From positions 1-64,000 of the forward strand of contig PHBH01000002.1 in the NCBI GenBank assembly GCA_002840535.1: a stretch of DNA of 64,000 bases, given 5' to 3'. Positions 4,138-14,474 of the stretch are shown in pieces (the stretch's first letter is position 1; each line of letters starts with the position of its first letter). The DNA comes from Deltaproteobacteria bacterium HGW-Deltaproteobacteria-15. Lineage in GTDB: Bacteria; Desulfobacterota; DSM-4660; Desulfatiglandales; HGW-15. The notes beneath the pieces are model-generated. The model had not been told where the DNA came from, did not search any database, and saw only the letters and a list, made by a program, of their open reading frames with translations. The position numbers were made by a program, and so were the translations under genes.

Positions 4138-4476
4138 TTATCTATTCAGAATAGTGGTCAGAGTCGAGACAAGAGGGGGTAAATCCAATTGAATGATGTC
4201 CCACAGGATGTCGAAATCCACGTCATCGTAGCCATGCACCAGTCGATTTCTAAGACCCGCGATTTCTACCCAAGCTACTTGGGGATGGTTTCTTTTGGTG
4301 TCCTCCGTTACGCGGGCGGATGCTTCGCCCACGATCTCCAGCAGACGCACCAAAGCCAGATTCAATTGTCTATCCTTGTCAAGGTCTCTTCTTACCCGAC
4401 TGCGGGCCATTTGCATCGCCTCAGTGCCATGATCAAGCATGTGCTGTAGGCGTATCCTGTCCTTGTCCTGCGGCAT
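4138..4476 (-). CDS. hepT: HepT-like toxin (HEPN/DUF86 RNase)
   Basis: A 112-residue helical protein of the HepT (DUF86) family. The HEPN ribonuclease motif R-x4-H-x-Y is present near residue 80 as RNRLVHGY. HepT proteins act on RNA as homodimers and are silenced when the partner MntA adds AMP to the tyrosine of this motif. It overlaps the upstream nucleotidyltransferase gene by 44 bp, the normal arrangement of the MntA/HepT pair. The key residues are all present, so the toxin looks intact. A role in phage defence or plasmid stability is inferred from the family. Confidence 0.88.
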
Positions 4477-4765
4477 ACTGGTCCTCGGCTTCTTCCATCA
4501 CACGTTCTCTGAAATATCTGCTAAGAAAGCCTGGGGTATTTAGATCTACCTTTCGGCCCAACATCCTAGACAGCTCTTCTTGCAGCGCGAAAAACCTTAA
4601 TCCGATTCTTGTTCCTGGCTCGAACTCAACGAGCACATCCACATCACTATCTGGAGTGAAGTCATCCCCCAATACGGAGCCGAACAGGGCCAACCTACGA
4701 ATATTGTGTCGTCGGCAGAATTCCGCGATTTTCTTTTCGGGGATCTCTATTTTTGCCCTCTTCAT
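4433..4765 (-). CDS. mntA: MntA-like antitoxin nucleotidyltransferase
   Basis: A 110-residue minimal nucleotidyltransferase. [20 protein letters not shown] around residues 24-43 contains the GS…D-x-D signature that binds metal and ATP. In the family, MntA transfers AMP groups to the HepT tyrosine and so neutralises the toxin. It is the first gene of the operon, and its last codons overlap the start of hepT by 44 bp. The upstream 460 bp has no other gene on this strand apart from the small GIY-YIG frame. Confidence 0.88.
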
Positions 4766-5110
4766 AACTGTTGCCCGGCTGGTCGTCTCTATCCGTGCCG
4801 CTCGATCCGATTAGGGCGGACATATGGAGTAAGCATACAGAAACCGAGATCCTAGGTCAACGTGAGTCAAGGGGGATAATTTGTGACTTCAAGTTCTCGA
4901 ATTCCAGGGATGTTAGCTGGAACATGAAATCCTTGGGAAACCCAGATAAACTGGACAAACCAACAGAACTAAAAATCGCACGCTGCCCCACAAGTCAGAG
5001 GTCAGAAGATCCAGATGTCAGAGACCGGAGGTCAGAGGTGGGATCATCTGTGAAATCTGAGTAATCTGTGGAAGAGAACGGACTAGACGTAGTAAGGCAT
5101 CTTGCGGCCC
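4766..5110. other. Non-coding spacer
   Basis: The region between mntA and the first attachment-like repeat. It contains degenerate GTCAGAGGTCAGAAG-type repeats (about 4990-5040) like those at 4090. The mntA promoter must lie in the part next to 4766, but I cannot point to clear -35/-10 boxes. Confidence 0.5.
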
Positions 5111-5221
5111 TCTTCACGCCGGAATAAAAAAGGAGCCGGAATTAACCGACCCCTTGCTGCTATCTGGCGGGGACGACGAGAAGCTTGTCGAAGATCCCGC
5201 TTCGGCGGGAAACTCGCGACC
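5111..5221. repeat. tRNA-3'-end-like repeat, interrupted copy
   Basis: A degenerate copy of 5501-5595. Shared blocks are TTCACGCCGGAAT, ACCCCTT, TGGCGGGGACGACGAG and AACTCGCGACC. In this copy a 30-bp segment with a CCCGCTTCGGCGGG hairpin (5181-5210) replaces the bases that would form the T-loop. It looks like a disrupted attachment site. Confidence 0.6.
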
Positions 5222-5229
5222 TTCCCGCA

Positions 5230-5454
5230 TTACATGCGGGACGTTCTGACCAGGGATTCGATAAAGGCTTTACTCTTTCTTCTTTTTATTTCATTTTCTC
5301 GTCTTACAGCGGAAGCTCGATCAGAAAATTCCTCCCAGTACACCAGGTTCCACGGTCTTTTGGCTTTGGTATACGCCGAACGACCTTCGTTGTGCCGCAC
5401 TAAACGCTTGTTTAGGTCCTGAGCAGAACCTACATAGAAACTCTGGTCGACCAT
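5230..5454 (-). CDS. Small GIY-YIG nuclease-like protein
   Basis: A 74-codon frame with the family blocks FYVGSAQDLNKRLVRHN, TKAKRPWNLVYWEEF and A.RRENEIKRRKS. GIY-YIG (URI-type) domains are small DNA endonucleases. Similarity continues upstream of the ATG in the same frame (AYVVYILQSM), which supplies the YVYIL strand of the GIY motif, but no ATG, GTG or TTG is found there. The gene therefore either starts at an unusual codon near 5493 or has lost its start. It lies between two copies of an attachment-like repeat, about 10 bp from the left one. Confidence 0.65.
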   Translation of the reverse strand: MVDQSFYVGSAQDLNKRLVRHNEGRSAYTKAKRPWNLVYWEEFSDRASAVRRENEIKRRKSKAFIESLVRTSRM

Positions 5455-5500
5455 AGATTGGAGTATATAAACGACGTAAGCCAGTGGTTGAGACCAGGCC

Positions 5501-5595
5501 TTCTCACGCCGGAATTGAAAAAGGGGCTGGACTGTAGATCCAACCCCTTATATGGCGGGGACGACGAGGCTCGAACTCGCGACCTCCGGCGTGAC
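5501..5595 (-). other. tRNA 3'-end fragment / putative att site
   Basis: On the minus strand, 5595-5553 reads as the 3' part of a tRNA: a T-arm with stem GCGAG/CTCGT and loop TTCGAGC, then CGTCCCC and G-CCA. No matching D-arm or 5' acceptor strand lies upstream, so this is a fragment, not a gene. Tyrosine integrases commonly use exactly this part of tRNA or tmRNA genes, and an integrase starts 380 bp away. Parts of the sequence recur at 5111-5221. Confidence 0.6.
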
Positions 5596-5748
5596 AGACT
5601 GATTTTTCAGAGTTCCCGTCTCCTACCCCATTTTCCTGCTTTTGTTAAAAATCCCTTGTTTCCTTGAGTTTATTGTATTATTCTCTTCCCCGATTGTTTA
5701 TCGATGTACCTCATTTTTTATCGTGGGTGGTGGGGATAGTGGTGGGGA

Positions 5749-5973: not shown

Positions 5974-7173
5974 ATGCCTAAGCAGAAAAGACATAAGACA
6001 GATTACCCAGGCGTCTATTGGATCGAGGGGAAATCGATCGTCGATGGTAAACCGGAAAAGATCTACTACGTCAGTTACAGAAGGGCCGGAAACCGCGTCG
6101 AGGAGAAGGTCGGGCGCCAGTCCATTGACGACATGACCCCTGCCAAGGCCAACAATAGACGTTCGGAGAGGATCTTGGGACACCAACCCTCGAATCAGGA
6201 AAAGAGGGAGATAATCAAGGCCGAGAAAGAGGCCGAAGCAGGAAAGTGGATCTTGGATAAGCTGTGGGACGAGTACAAGATGCACAAGTCCATTAATAAG
6301 GGCTTCATGACCGACGACGGCCGTTACCGATTGTACCTCAAAGAGTCTTTTGGGAAAAAGGAACCTCATGAAATCGTCATGCTGGATGTCGACAGACTGA
6401 GGCTCAGGCTGATGAGAACCAAGTCCCCTCAGACCGTAAGACACGTCCTACACCTCCTCCAGCGCATCATCAATTTCGGGGTCACTAGAAAACTCTGCCA
6501 GCCCCTTCCCTTCCGCATCCAGAAGCCGAAGGTGAACAACATCCGCACCGAGGACCTTTCATCAGAACAGCTGAAAAAACTGCTGGAGGCGATCGATGCG
6601 GATAAGAACCTTCAGGCCGGGAACATGATGAAGATGGCCCTATTCACCGGCATGAGGCGCGGTGAGCTCTTCAAGCTGACTTGGCAGGACGTGGACTTCG
6701 AACGTGGATTCATCTATATCCGGGACCCCAAGGGCGGACAGGACCAGGTCATCCCACTCAATGATGCAGCAAGGAAACTGCTTGAGGCGCACCCCAAAAA
6801 GAGCGTGGAAGTCGATTCCCAGAAAACTGATAGCGAATACGTTTTTGCGGGCCGGGAAGGAAAAGAGAGGACGGATATCAATCACCAGGTGAAGAGGATT
6901 AGGGATGCCGCCGGTCTGCCAGCAACCTTCAGGCCGCTCCACGGGCTCCGGCACACTTATGCATCCATGCTTGCATCCAGCGGTCAGGTGGACCTCTACA
7001 CATTGCAGCGCCTTCTCACCCATAAAGACCCGAGGATGACCCAGCGCTACGCTCACCTCCGGGACGAAACCCTACGAAGGGCATCGAACCTGGCGGAAGG
7101 CATTATTGCGGAGGCGGTGAAACCGAAGAAGAAGAAAGGAGGAAAGGTTGTCAGGATGGAGAAGAAGAACTGA
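5974..7173 (+). CDS. int: Tyrosine recombinase (phage-type integrase)
   Basis: A 399-residue site-specific recombinase. The catalytic set is visible in the C-terminal half: the first Arg in TGMRRGELFKLTW, the HxxR box as LHGLRHTYASML, the second His in LLTHKDPRMTQRY and the nucleophilic Tyr in the same segment (RYAHL). The N-terminal 180 residues contain the core-binding SAM-like domain. A GGAGG sits 6 nt before the ATG. The gene points away from the putative tRNA-derived attachment site and is preceded by inverted repeats, the normal layout at the end of an integrated island. The other end of the island was not recognised in this window. Confidence 0.92.
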   Translation: MPKQKRHKTDYPGVYWIEGKSIVDGKPEKIYYVSYRRAGNRVEEKVGRQSIDDMTPAKANNRRSERILGHQPSNQEKREIIKAEKEAEAGKWILDKLWDEYKMHKSINKGFMTDDGRYRLYLKESFGKKEPHEIVMLDVDRLRLRLMRTKSPQTVRHVLHLLQRIINFGVTRKLCQPLPFRIQKPKVNNIRTEDLSSEQLKKLLEAIDADKNLQAGNMMKMALFTGMRRGELFKLTWQDVDFERGFIYIRDPKGGQDQVIPLNDAARKLLEAHPKKSVEVDSQKTDSEYVFAGREGKERTDINHQVKRIRDAAGLPATFRPLHGLRHTYASMLASSGQVDLYTLQRLLTHKDPRMTQRYAHLRDETLRRASNLAEGIIAEAVKPKKKKGGKVVRMEKKN

Positions 7174-11603: not shown

Positions 11604-14474
11604 TCAGCTTCCCTCAGTTCCATTTGAAATCCGCTTTCCATCTTTTGCTTCAAGCCGAAATGCAAGACTCTGTGCGGCCCCTTCTGGGAAAGGGATCCGA
11701 TCTGCCATTCTTTCGGTGGTTCGAAGGTCTGTCTTATAATTCTCCCCCATCAGGACCCTAAACCACCGCTCTCGATCCGTAACCACCCGGTACATCTTTT
11801 CATCCTGGGTCTCTGCAATGAATGGTAAATAGACGTTCAACGGGAGCCCGCAACGTTCAATCTTTGCACCGATCCTGTCGACACGCCCTGTCCTCTGTTC
11901 CAGAGTACTTGGGTTCCAGCAAAGATCGTGATGGATGACATGCCGGCAACATAGGTGGAGATCAACTCCCTCTGCCATCACACTGCTTGCAATGAGGACC
12001 TCAGGATAGAAGGGGGTATTGAAGGTGAGCATTAGTTTCTGCCTCGTTTCCGACTTTACGTCCCCGTTGACCAATCGTACATTCGGAACGAGCCGTTCGG
12101 TCCTTTCTCCCTGGAGTTCATCGAAATTGAAGGTCTTGCCAACCTCCGCCCCAAAGTAGGCGCCGGTTTGTACACTTCCTGCTGCCTTGATGTAGTTTTC
12201 CCGTTCCGCACTTCCGCATTTCTTCTGAAGAAAAGAGAAAAACTCCTCCAATATCCCTTTAAGAGTCTGCCCGGAGCCATCCTTCGTAGTCAGGGCCTGG
12301 TACATGGACTCTTCAGTAAGTCGCTCCTCGCTCAAAGGAAAATAGCGGACAAGGAAGGTCGGGGTCCTTACGTAGCGGCGGACGACGTCCACAAGTTCCC
12401 TATCGTGCATAAGAAGATCAGGATAGCCCTTCAGGATCTCCATGGTGGCATCTTCGCAAGCCTTCCGAATTGGGGAATCCCTGTCGAAGAACCGGACACC
12501 CAGTCTTTCCAGTTCCTCCAGCACGTCGGACTCTCCGCATCTTAGCTTTTTCGCGCCCAAAGTTACCGTATTCCATCGAATGGCTTCAGAAATATGCTGG
12601 CGCAAGCTTCGGCCTGTTGCGATGTAATGGCAGAACACCAGGACTTTCTCTCCAGCTTTCCACGCGTCAATCACTCTCTTGACAGTGCCATCGATTTTCG
12701 GATGCAGCCCTAGGGTTTTTCTCTCCTCGATTGTGAGAAAAGCGTCCAGCCTTTTGAGGTACCATTGGGCAACCTCATCAGTGGCGGTGTTCTTGATTCC
12801 CTCATCATCGGAGTCTAGAACCTCCTCGATGTTCGCCCCCTCTAGTCTTGCCGTACGACGGGTGAGAATAAAGGCTTCGTAGCTCGAAGCAAGGCCCTCG
12901 GCAAATACTGGGCGTGATTCCGGCCTGCAAGCGACCGCCCTGGCCGCAAGAAGAAAAGGCAAAACGTGATTTCCGGATACAGGAATGCCGAATGCGTCGG
13001 TTGCTTCATTCCCTGGAAAGATCGCTTCGCCTATCAACAGCTTTCTCCGTTTGCTTCCGCAAAAAGGCTCGGGCAGCACTTTCGATTTGATGTGCCTGAT
13101 TACCCAGGGGATCAGACTCTCCTCAGCTTCGCGCATCCTTGTCTCGACGCGTCTAAAACACTCTAGAACCCGATTCGCCTGGGTCGTACTTGGAACTCCT
13201 TTCGACACGCCTTCCCACCACCTCGCCACGTCATTGACCGGTTTCCCATCGATGGATACATCCTCCTTCCTCAGGTGGCCCCAAGCATAATCCAGGCTCA
13301 TCGCGGCTTCCTGAGCCGCATCGAGCCTGGCGCGCAGGCGAGAGACTGTCTCTCGGAAAGTCTGCTTCCCTCCTGCCGGGGATGCCTTGACATTCCATGC
13401 GATCCCCTCAAACCTCTCCAGGACGGAGCAGAGTTCATGATGACCCAACTGAAACGGAGTTGCGGTCATAAAAAGCATCCGTTCGAACACACCCCCGAGA
13501 GCACCCTTTATCTCCTCTGCATCACCTTCAGCATCAGGCACCTGAAACAATGACGCCAGCCGTGTCCTGGCGTTTTTGAGATGATGAGCTTCATCAAGGA
13601 CAAGCAGAGGCAAATTGAAGTTCAGGTTTTTCAGACATATATGCCACAGACTCCTAAGTTCTTGATTCAGCACTCTCCGGGCTTCCACTACCCTTTCTTC
13701 ATAGGTCTTGCTTTGCCTATACGGTATACCCTTTAGCGCCTCGTAGACACTCTCAGCTTTGATTTCACGTAGTGTCTTTATGATCGTATTTGGCACAGGA
13801 TCATCGTCGTTTTCAGCGTTCTTGTCTCGTTCTGGATCAATGCCGAACCGGCGCATCGTCTTCAACCAATTCTCAGGATCTGTTTCAAGCAATCTCTCCC
13901 AAAGGTCCGGAGCCTTGGTATCGACCCATGATGACATTAGAAGCTTTCCTAAGACCCTGCAAAGTGCCCGACGCAACAATCGAGTATCTCGACGATGGAA
14001 TAGAGACCTCTGGACAAGTGCGAGCTTCACCCAGGGATCTGTCAGGCCTGCGCTCATTGCACCATGGGTCAGGAATATGATCGAGCAGCGTCGGTCCGGA
14101 GGGTCATCAATCAGCTTGAGGAAATCCACCCCCCGCTCGGCATGGCCGCTCTTCAGCAGGATTGCCATATCCTCAGGGAGGCATCTCTCTTTGAAAAGTT
14201 CGAAGTCCCGGGGCCACTTCTCCCTTAGGGACGAGGGGACCATCACAACCACCGGTCTCATTTGTTTGTCTGCCAACGCAACTGAAACGGCCACTGCCAA
14301 CGCGACAAACGTTTTCCCCATACCTACTTCATCGGCCAGGATGATGCCGGGTTGAGATTGCAGTCTGCCCAGAAGATCGCGTGCCGTTCGATCCTGACGA
14401 TTGGCATCTGCAGAGGATATCCGGCTCTCCACGTGGAGATTAATGCTGTCGCAGTAGTTGTAAGTCCAGCTCAT
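11604..14474 (-). CDS. SNF2/DEAH-type helicase (defence)
   Basis: A 956-residue superfamily 2 ATPase of the SNF2/RapA kind. Walker A is ADEVGMGKT (about residue 47-55), the DEAH box is VLDEAHHLK (about 291-299), motif III is FMTATPFQL, and the C-terminal lobe has ASSVMAEGVDL and EQRTGRVDRIG (about 860-870). An insertion of roughly 180 residues between motifs I and II is unusually long. Such enzymes translocate on double-stranded DNA. The gene overlaps the upstream phospholipase D-like gene by 4 bp (ATGA), so the two proteins are probably made together and may act in one complex. Confidence 0.88.
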   Translation of the reverse strand: MSWTYNYCDSINLHVESRISSADANRQDRTARDLLGRLQSQPGIILADEVGMGKTFVALAVAVSVALADKQMRPVVVMVPSSLREKWPRDFELFKERCLPEDMAILLKSGHAERGVDFLKLIDDPPDRRCSIIFLTHGAMSAGLTDPWVKLALVQRSLFHRRDTRLLRRALCRVLGKLLMSSWVDTKAPDLWERLLETDPENWLKTMRRFGIDPERDKNAENDDDPVPNTIIKTLREIKAESVYEALKGIPYRQSKTYEERVVEARRVLNQELRSLWHICLKNLNFNLPLLVLDEAHHLKNARTRLASLFQVPDAEGDAEEIKGALGGVFERMLFMTATPFQLGHHELCSVLERFEGIAWNVKASPAGGKQTFRETVSRLRARLDAAQEAAMSLDYAWGHLRKEDVSIDGKPVNDVARWWEGVSKGVPSTTQANRVLECFRRVETRMREAEESLIPWVIRHIKSKVLPEPFCGSKRRKLLIGEAIFPGNEATDAFGIPVSGNHVLPFLLAARAVACRPESRPVFAEGLASSYEAFILTRRTARLEGANIEEVLDSDDEGIKNTATDEVAQWYLKRLDAFLTIEERKTLGLHPKIDGTVKRVIDAWKAGEKVLVFCHYIATGRSLRQHISEAIRWNTVTLGAKKLRCGESDVLEELERLGVRFFDRDSPIRKACEDATMEILKGYPDLLMHDRELVDVVRRYVRTPTFLVRYFPLSEERLTEESMYQALTTKDGSGQTLKGILEEFFSFLQKKCGSAERENYIKAAGSVQTGAYFGAEVGKTFNFDELQGERTERLVPNVRLVNGDVKSETRQKLMLTFNTPFYPEVLIASSVMAEGVDLHLCCRHVIHHDLCWNPSTLEQRTGRVDRIGAKIERCGLPLNVYLPFIAETQDEKMYRVVTDRERWFRVLMGENYKTDLRTTERMADRIPFPEGAAQSLAFRLEAKDGKRISNGTEGS

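Follow-up and report, generated by a model that had tools for sequence, protein, structure and literature searches.

The stretch analysed here (the window) comprises 64,000 nucleotides of contig C59 (C59:1-64000). On its minus strand lies a small GIY-YIG nuclease gene, which we call GIY1 (5230..5484), flanked on both sides by sequence derived from tRNA-Asp. Read along that strand, the order is a tRNA-Asp end, a terminator-like hairpin, a leader, GIY1, a hairpin-bearing copy of tRNA-Asp, another terminator with its leader, and the broken start of a further GIY-YIG gene.

The tRNA sequence preceding GIY1 (5553..5597, minus strand) is the 3′ part of tRNA-Asp, from the anticodon loop to CCA. The initial annotation had placed a tRNA 3′ end at 5553-5595. 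This holds, and the match extends to 5597: 45 bp are identical to C59:68907-68951, an exact agreement that leads us to reject a chance match. The genome thus does contain an intact tRNA with this 3′ end, a tRNA-Asp(GTC) on the same contig (C59:68907-68984) with tRNA-Val just upstream. Between the tRNA end and GIY1, a terminator-like hairpin with a T-run (5517..5549, minus strand) can be read from the sequence and aligns with the second copy.

The tRNA sequence following GIY1 had been described as a disrupted copy at 5165-5221. It is real, and alignments extend it to approximately 5165..5241 (minus strand), with stretches of tRNA-Asp retained around two perfect hairpins. The first, TCCCGCAT-GTA-ATGCGGGA (5223..5241, minus strand), replaces the anticodon arm and is one of 19 copies in which we find covariation; the second, TCCCGC-CGAA-GCGGGA (5195..5210, minus strand), lies in the T-arm. 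The copy and GIY1 overlap: the last codons of the gene (LVRTSRM-stop) form the D-arm-like part of the tRNA copy. Further along, another GIY-YIG gene begins but is broken off after 17 nt (ATG CCT TAC TAC GTC TA; 5084..5100, minus strand), and this gene start is the remnant of a second, tandem unit. The two halves are similar from the tRNA through terminator and leader to the second GIY-YIG start (their alignment scores 53.5, whereas 500 random windows give at most 25.9). A loose version of the hairpin pattern has 2 matches in the window where 1.09 are expected, and at least 2 occur in 32 of 100 shuffles. The pattern alone is therefore not rare; what gives it weight is where it lies, inside a tRNA copy, and that it recurs in relatives.

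The presence of a GIY-YIG gene here is borne out by a Pfam search, in which GIY1 scores 66 bits against PF01541 (cut-off 22.6); domain and retained residues together place it in the GIY-YIG nuclease superfamily. Its proposed length of 74 codons stands only in part. The frame from an internal ATG at 5454 (5230-5454) exists and encodes 74 aa, but in that reading the start of the domain is lost and the frame is open upstream. Because the CTG at 5484 occupies the position of the ATG in six relatives with which it aligns, and the frame continues to it, we take the protein to be about 84 aa long. In an alignment of 28 sequences Y9, Y20, G22, R30 and H34 are invariant and E66 nearly so; the catalytic Tyr, Arg and Glu are retained. 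pN/pS is 0.22-0.31 for GIY1 against three relatives and 0.17-0.31 across 14 pairs.

By profile search, the best matches with solved structures are PDB 1zg2 (E 2.5e-21) and 1ywl (E 8.8e-19). Both belong to the same single-domain family as GIY1, UPF0213, yet are named only as hypothetical proteins. GIY1 is closest to this family and, as a single-domain protein within the range of 80-100 aa, counts among the small UPF0213 (COG2827) GIY-YIG proteins. Outside UPF0213, its nearest solved relatives are SLX1, which are structure-specific. Homing enzymes typically carry a DNA-binding part beyond the catalytic domain, whereas GIY1 consists of the catalytic domain alone; this and the SLX1 relationship count against a homing function. 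The gene in the window may be in decay, as it has no ATG start and the second unit is broken.

The 63-kb integrase island

A tyrosine integrase gene (5974..7173, plus strand; Pfam Phage_integrase, 118.6 bits) marks the left end of an island of 63 kb that spans 5553 to C59:68907. The integrase starts 376 bp past the attachment copy. Together with this adjoining integrase, a 45-bp direct repeat and the intact tRNA-Asp at the opposite end (C59:68907-68984) identify the stretch as a tyrosine-integrase island, whose far end had been sought. The tRNA-Asp end at 5553-5597 serves twice, as the attachment-site copy of the island and as the tRNA end that precedes GIY1.

The initial annotation had suggested nested attachment sites left by successive integrations, with the nuclease gene carried or used in the process. 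Carriage by the island is not what we find: GIY1 (5230-5484) lies beyond the attachment copies, outside an island that starts at 5553, so the island did not carry it, and we reject the gene as island cargo. As to nesting, the outer element (5553-5595) is indeed half of an attachment pair. The inner, disrupted copy is not supported as an older site, because similar copies adjoin GIY-YIG relatives in loci where tblastn with the window integrase detected no tyrosine recombinase (77 of 79 loci gave no match). On present evidence, the successive integrations reduce to a single integrase island in a tRNA-Asp that already bore a tandem GIY-YIG unit. The island would have entered this tRNA-Asp later, moving the unit 63 kb from its tRNA; with the island removed, GIY1 would directly follow tRNA-Asp, as it does in relatives.

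The genome G132 has the same order as the window, with a 60%-identical integrase and an island of 9 kb. Tyrosine-integrase islands duplicate part of a tRNA and keep the tRNA intact. The GIY-YIG loci differ from them: tblastn with the single window integrase found a match in only two of 79 relative loci (from the best 80 of 100 confirmed stretches) and no recombinase in the other 77, a scan that covered up to 6 kb on each side (median length 10.2 kb) and could miss more distant recombinases. One of the two positive loci, L047, shares its GIY-YIG protein with G132, whose layout equals that of the window.

Relatives beside tRNA genes and the hairpins of their second copies

The 79 loci, which encode 79 distinct proteins, come from a scan of genome contigs, and the counts in this paragraph all refer to the best 80 of 100 confirmed stretches. 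They are distributed over Desulfobacterota, Bacteroidota, Ignavibacteriota, Chlorobi, Nitrospirota, Patescibacteria and a Clostridia MAG; isolates among them are Draconibacterium, Maribellus and Litoribacter. In 59 of the 79 loci a tRNA lies on the same strand within 600 bp of the gene, and in one more a tRNA lies on the opposite strand only. tRNA density is 0.772/kb near the gene versus 0.039/kb more than 1.5 kb away. Twenty loci lack a same-strand tRNA within 600 bp, and in eight of these the record ends less than 600 bp from the gene. A second copy of the same tRNA (score of at least 16) is found across the gene in 44 of the 59 loci, compared with none of 1,162 control windows. The complete tRNA is upstream in 40 and downstream in 19, giving two mirror forms. 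Most frequent is tRNA-Asp (30 of the 59), followed by Ala (10), Glu (5), Ser and Pro (4 each), Met (2), and Lys, Tyr, Val and Leu (1 each).

A further type, tRNA-Asn, occurs in loci of the phylum-wide and further searches. The type of tRNA tracks the protein tree, on which it changes 16 times; shuffling gives 38.8 changes on average, and none of 200 shuffles is as low. This clustering is inflated by near-copies, the same organism being present in the phylum and genome-contig sets. The tree is a quick one with many unresolved forks, and we left out the truncated or doubtful L021, L038, L072, L089 and L108 as well as the label of L050. Within the phylum, 73 of 297 genomes hold a GIY-YIG relative, and 20 of the 30 loci listed have a same-strand tRNA within 600 bp, none having one on the opposite strand only. 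More distant matches were sampled as 60 of the 71 phylum rows without a locus. Only 12 of the 60 have a tRNA within 600 bp, always on the same strand; seven have only a same-strand T-arm-like motif and 41 have neither within that distance. The tRNA habit is thus limited to part of the wider GIY-YIG family.

Of 32 relatives, 17 have a T-run directly ahead of the GIY-YIG start; among control ATGs the figure is 104 of 1,339. This suggests expression by read-through of the terminator. A pattern-based scan of IMG/VR confirmed no relatives there; the L106 protein matches 12 of 50,697 phage records, all at less than 60% identity, and the window protein matches four of 72,556 plasmid records. On these counts we reject phages or plasmids as the usual vehicle.

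Closely related genomes differ in whether they hold the unit. Ten draft genomes of one genus were compared at a tRNA-Leu/tRNA-Ala locus. It is occupied in G045, G301, G297 and G007 (in the last, locus L153, the first of two GIY-YIG copies is partly N), holds the second tRNA copy alone in G215, and is empty in G299, G300 and G237. The remaining two are unreadable: the contig of G140 ends inside the GIY-YIG match, and the stretch from G298 is without tRNA-Ala. At position 47, the 3′ half of the second copy agrees with the tRNA of its own host: C in G297 and G215, T in G045 and G301. At a second locus, tRNA-Val/tRNA-Asp, 21 of 31 searched genomes are readable. A GIY-YIG gene directly follows tRNA-Asp in six (G033, G208, G252, G303, G306, G310); of the other 15, two have an island between (G132 and G000, the window genome), 12 have no such gene in the stretch and one reaches a contig end. 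Since one frame of the query includes its own tRNA, tblastn matches overlapping tRNA-Asp were disregarded here. The genus of G252 is represented by two genomes, both with the unit.

Amplification is seen in L116, where five tandem units at 365-bp spacing encode identical proteins, and the four units compared have 99.5-100% DNA identity. The tRNA fragments did not establish a single fixed insertion point: positions 35-37 are the endpoint of four of the 13 5′ fragments, and position 44 is the first position of six of the 31 3′ fragments, but both lists are spread.

Many second copies carry hairpins like those of the window. A perfect TCCCG..CGGGA hairpin with a stem of at least 6 is present in 24 of the 44 second tRNA copies (best 80 of 100 stretches), flanked on both sides by tRNA stretches. 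The others carry different hairpins or none: copies of the Ala type have a small hairpin, GTCG-NAT-CGAC, and L094 has its native anticodon arm. In the 762 kb of the 79 loci, 68 of the 82 TCCCG..CGGGA hairpins with stems of at least 6 fall between -700 and +1000 of the gene, in 40 loci (again best 80 of 100). The pairing is conserved by compensatory change. Across 19 aligned copies 97.4% of cells pair, falling to 57% or less when the strands are slid, and double-changed cells number 32 versus 10.4 after shuffling (none of 500 shuffles reaching this). The alignment holds 19 of 21 collected copies, L045 and L051 being left out; a stem of 6 or more pairs was required for inclusion among the 21, which leaves pairs 7 and 8 as the only unselected ones. 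Without stem selection, the sixth pair is complementary in 38 of 39 and the seventh in 39 of 39 cases, which are not independent.

Similar palindromes exist elsewhere too: the loose TCCCG..CGGGA pattern occurs 313 times in the window genome versus 114 for the reversed control, and seven sampled sites lie, as judged by eye, in non-tRNA contexts. Tandem arrays of hairpin-bearing tRNA copies without a gene occur upstream of some tRNAs. Upstream of the intact tRNA-Asp of the window contig, C59 ~69012-69083 (L008:5012-5083) consists of the 5′ part of tRNA-Asp, with a hairpin substituted for the anticodon arm, and a repeated leader; it is a mimic-only remnant. In L247, three tandem 77-bp copies of tRNA-Asn length lie at -359 to -182 of the GIY-YIG gene, upstream of an intact tRNA-Asn, each with two hairpins that replace arm strands. 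The window genome also has a short dispersed repeat in 23 places (approximately positions 134-173 of L008:4840-5260, minus strand), one that occurs beside tRNA-Asp as well.

Explanations of the unit

We consider it probable that GIY1 and its tRNA-linked relatives are free-standing, single-domain nuclease genes of homing type, resident on tRNA genes and spreading there as a compact unit. Sequence comparison shows that a tRNA recurs on the same strand, that a further copy of it lies across the gene, that the hairpin pairs by compensatory change, that the unit is present in some and absent from other genomes at an orthologous tRNA locus, that it amplifies in tandem, and that pN is below pS. The unit, of about 340-390 bp, would comprise a complete tRNA with its terminator, followed by the nuclease gene and then by another copy of the tRNA, either truncated or with one or more arms replaced by a hairpin; in the mirror form the complete tRNA would be downstream. 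Insertion should be harmless because the complete tRNA remains. The nuclease may cut DNA at tRNA genes in a homing-like manner, and the unit could then be copied in during repair of the break, which would use the two tRNA copies as homology arms and leave one working tRNA. The same recombination could generate the tandem arrays. The position behind the tRNA terminator may hold expression low.

Such cutting raises the question of how the host is spared. The complete tRNA-Ala is letter-identical in the occupied genomes G045 and G301 and the empty G300, so a nuclease that cut the tRNA gene would also cut its own host, and recoding of the host tRNA as self-protection is rejected. The puzzle would be solved by a site made up of tRNA and downstream flank, by structure-specific activity as in the SLX1 relatives, or by recognition of the hairpin.

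A comparable association is known from phages. In the parts of the papers available to us, SegB of phages T4 and T6 is described as a free-standing GIY-YIG homing endonuclease (PMC13096335, PMC2988022) that is linked to tRNA genes and drives tandem amplification of a tRNA segment (PMC13096335). Shared with GIY1 are the position of a GIY-YIG gene among tRNA genes, a tRNA association extending over many relatives, and the tandem amplification of tRNA segments. SegB differs in being phage-borne, whereas the GIY1 relatives come from bacterial genome contigs, and the accessible text mentions no hairpin-bearing tRNA copy. SegB is also longer than GIY1-type proteins. In the accessible part of a 2006 survey of GIY-YIG proteins, the body mentions tRNA only for an SLX1-TrmH fusion (PMC1564403). 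Among the matches listed in the open-access literature, no title or opening abstract concerns such units on bacterial chromosomes. Group I introns with homing endonucleases occur in bacterial tRNA genes and likewise combine a selfish nuclease with retained host function. They differ in that the tRNA beside a GIY1-type gene is uninterrupted; with no Rfam match at the gathering score in the window, we reject an intron here.

Alternatively, the protein could be a structure-specific DNA-repair nuclease domesticated by its hosts and kept beside tRNA genes through vertical descent. A pN below pS, the Val-Asp-GIY order in six of 21 readable relatives and the SLX1-like relatives would all be consistent with this. 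We nevertheless regard it as unlikely: the gene is patchy (73 of 297 phylum genomes), occupied, empty and copy-only states coexist within one genus, and the units involve many tRNA types in several phyla, with second tRNA copies and a tandem array.

There is a still smaller chance that the tRNA copies are nested footprints of successive integrase islands, with the GIY-YIG gene as cargo or helper. Tyrosine integrases use tRNA genes, the attachment copy at 5553-5597 is genuine, and G132 has a related integrase in the same layout. Counter to this are the rarity of tyrosine-recombinase matches to the one integrase searched by tblastn (two of 79 loci, best 80 of 100), a tandem array made only of tRNA tail and GIY-YIG gene, arms replaced by hairpins, a mirror form with 5′ tRNA fragments, and the position of GIY1 outside the island of the window.

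We give similarly little credence to a system acting at the level of RNA, in which the hairpin-bearing tRNA mimic would function as an RNA alongside the GIY-YIG protein, be it as inhibitor, as processing signal or as template; the two might, for instance, form a toxin/antitoxin-like pair that acts on tRNA. The compensatory pairing, the tRNA elements kept on both sides of the hairpins and the tandem arrays of gene-free mimic copies would suit such a role, but GIY-YIG enzymes are known as DNA nucleases, and the acceptor stem of the copies is often incomplete. Least credible is a view of the hairpins as common REP-like palindromes, inserted into defunct tRNA copies and without any tie to the nuclease: the 313 dispersed sites (114 in the control), the seven non-tRNA samples and the absence of the TCCCG hairpin from 20 of 44 second copies (best 80 of 100) would fit, yet 68 of 82 such hairpins in the 79 loci (same set) sit at the nuclease gene, inside tRNA copies and in several phyla.

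Returning to the probable homing-type unit, a bolder version of it is a tentative possibility. The units may amount to a new kind of minimal mobile element of bacterial chromosomes that pairs one GIY-YIG nuclease of 80-90 aa with a hairpin-bearing tRNA mimic as functional end. Such elements would cross phyla between tRNA genes, regenerate a working tRNA, amplify in tandem and leave mimic-only remnant arrays, the nuclease recognising a tRNA-shaped hairpin (most commonly TCCCG..CGGGA) as DNA or RNA.

If tRNA-linked GIY-YIG units are what they appear to be, part of the widespread but poorly characterised UPF0213 family would acquire a place and a likely lifestyle, and the tRNA pseudo-copies that stand beside tRNA genes in Patescibacteria, Bacteroidota and other bacterial groups would be explained. 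The units would also offer a simple test system for a selfish nuclease that sits beside essential genes and leaves its host unharmed, and would extend tRNA-linked homing nucleases from phages to bacterial chromosomes.

Other genes of the window

Two adjoining minus-strand genes (405-1346 and 1362-2273) encode HNH proteins that resemble restriction enzymes (PADLOC HNH); the second also matches a model of a phosphorothioate-DNA restriction enzyme, below its cut-off. At 4138-4765 (minus strand), outside the island, lies a toxin-antitoxin pair of MntA/HepT-like nucleotidyltransferase and RNase, with NCBIfam matches below the cut-offs. A large SNF2-type helicase gene at 11604-14474 (minus strand) has PDC-M27C, ZacC and DrmD-like matches, which suggests defence content in the 63-kb island.
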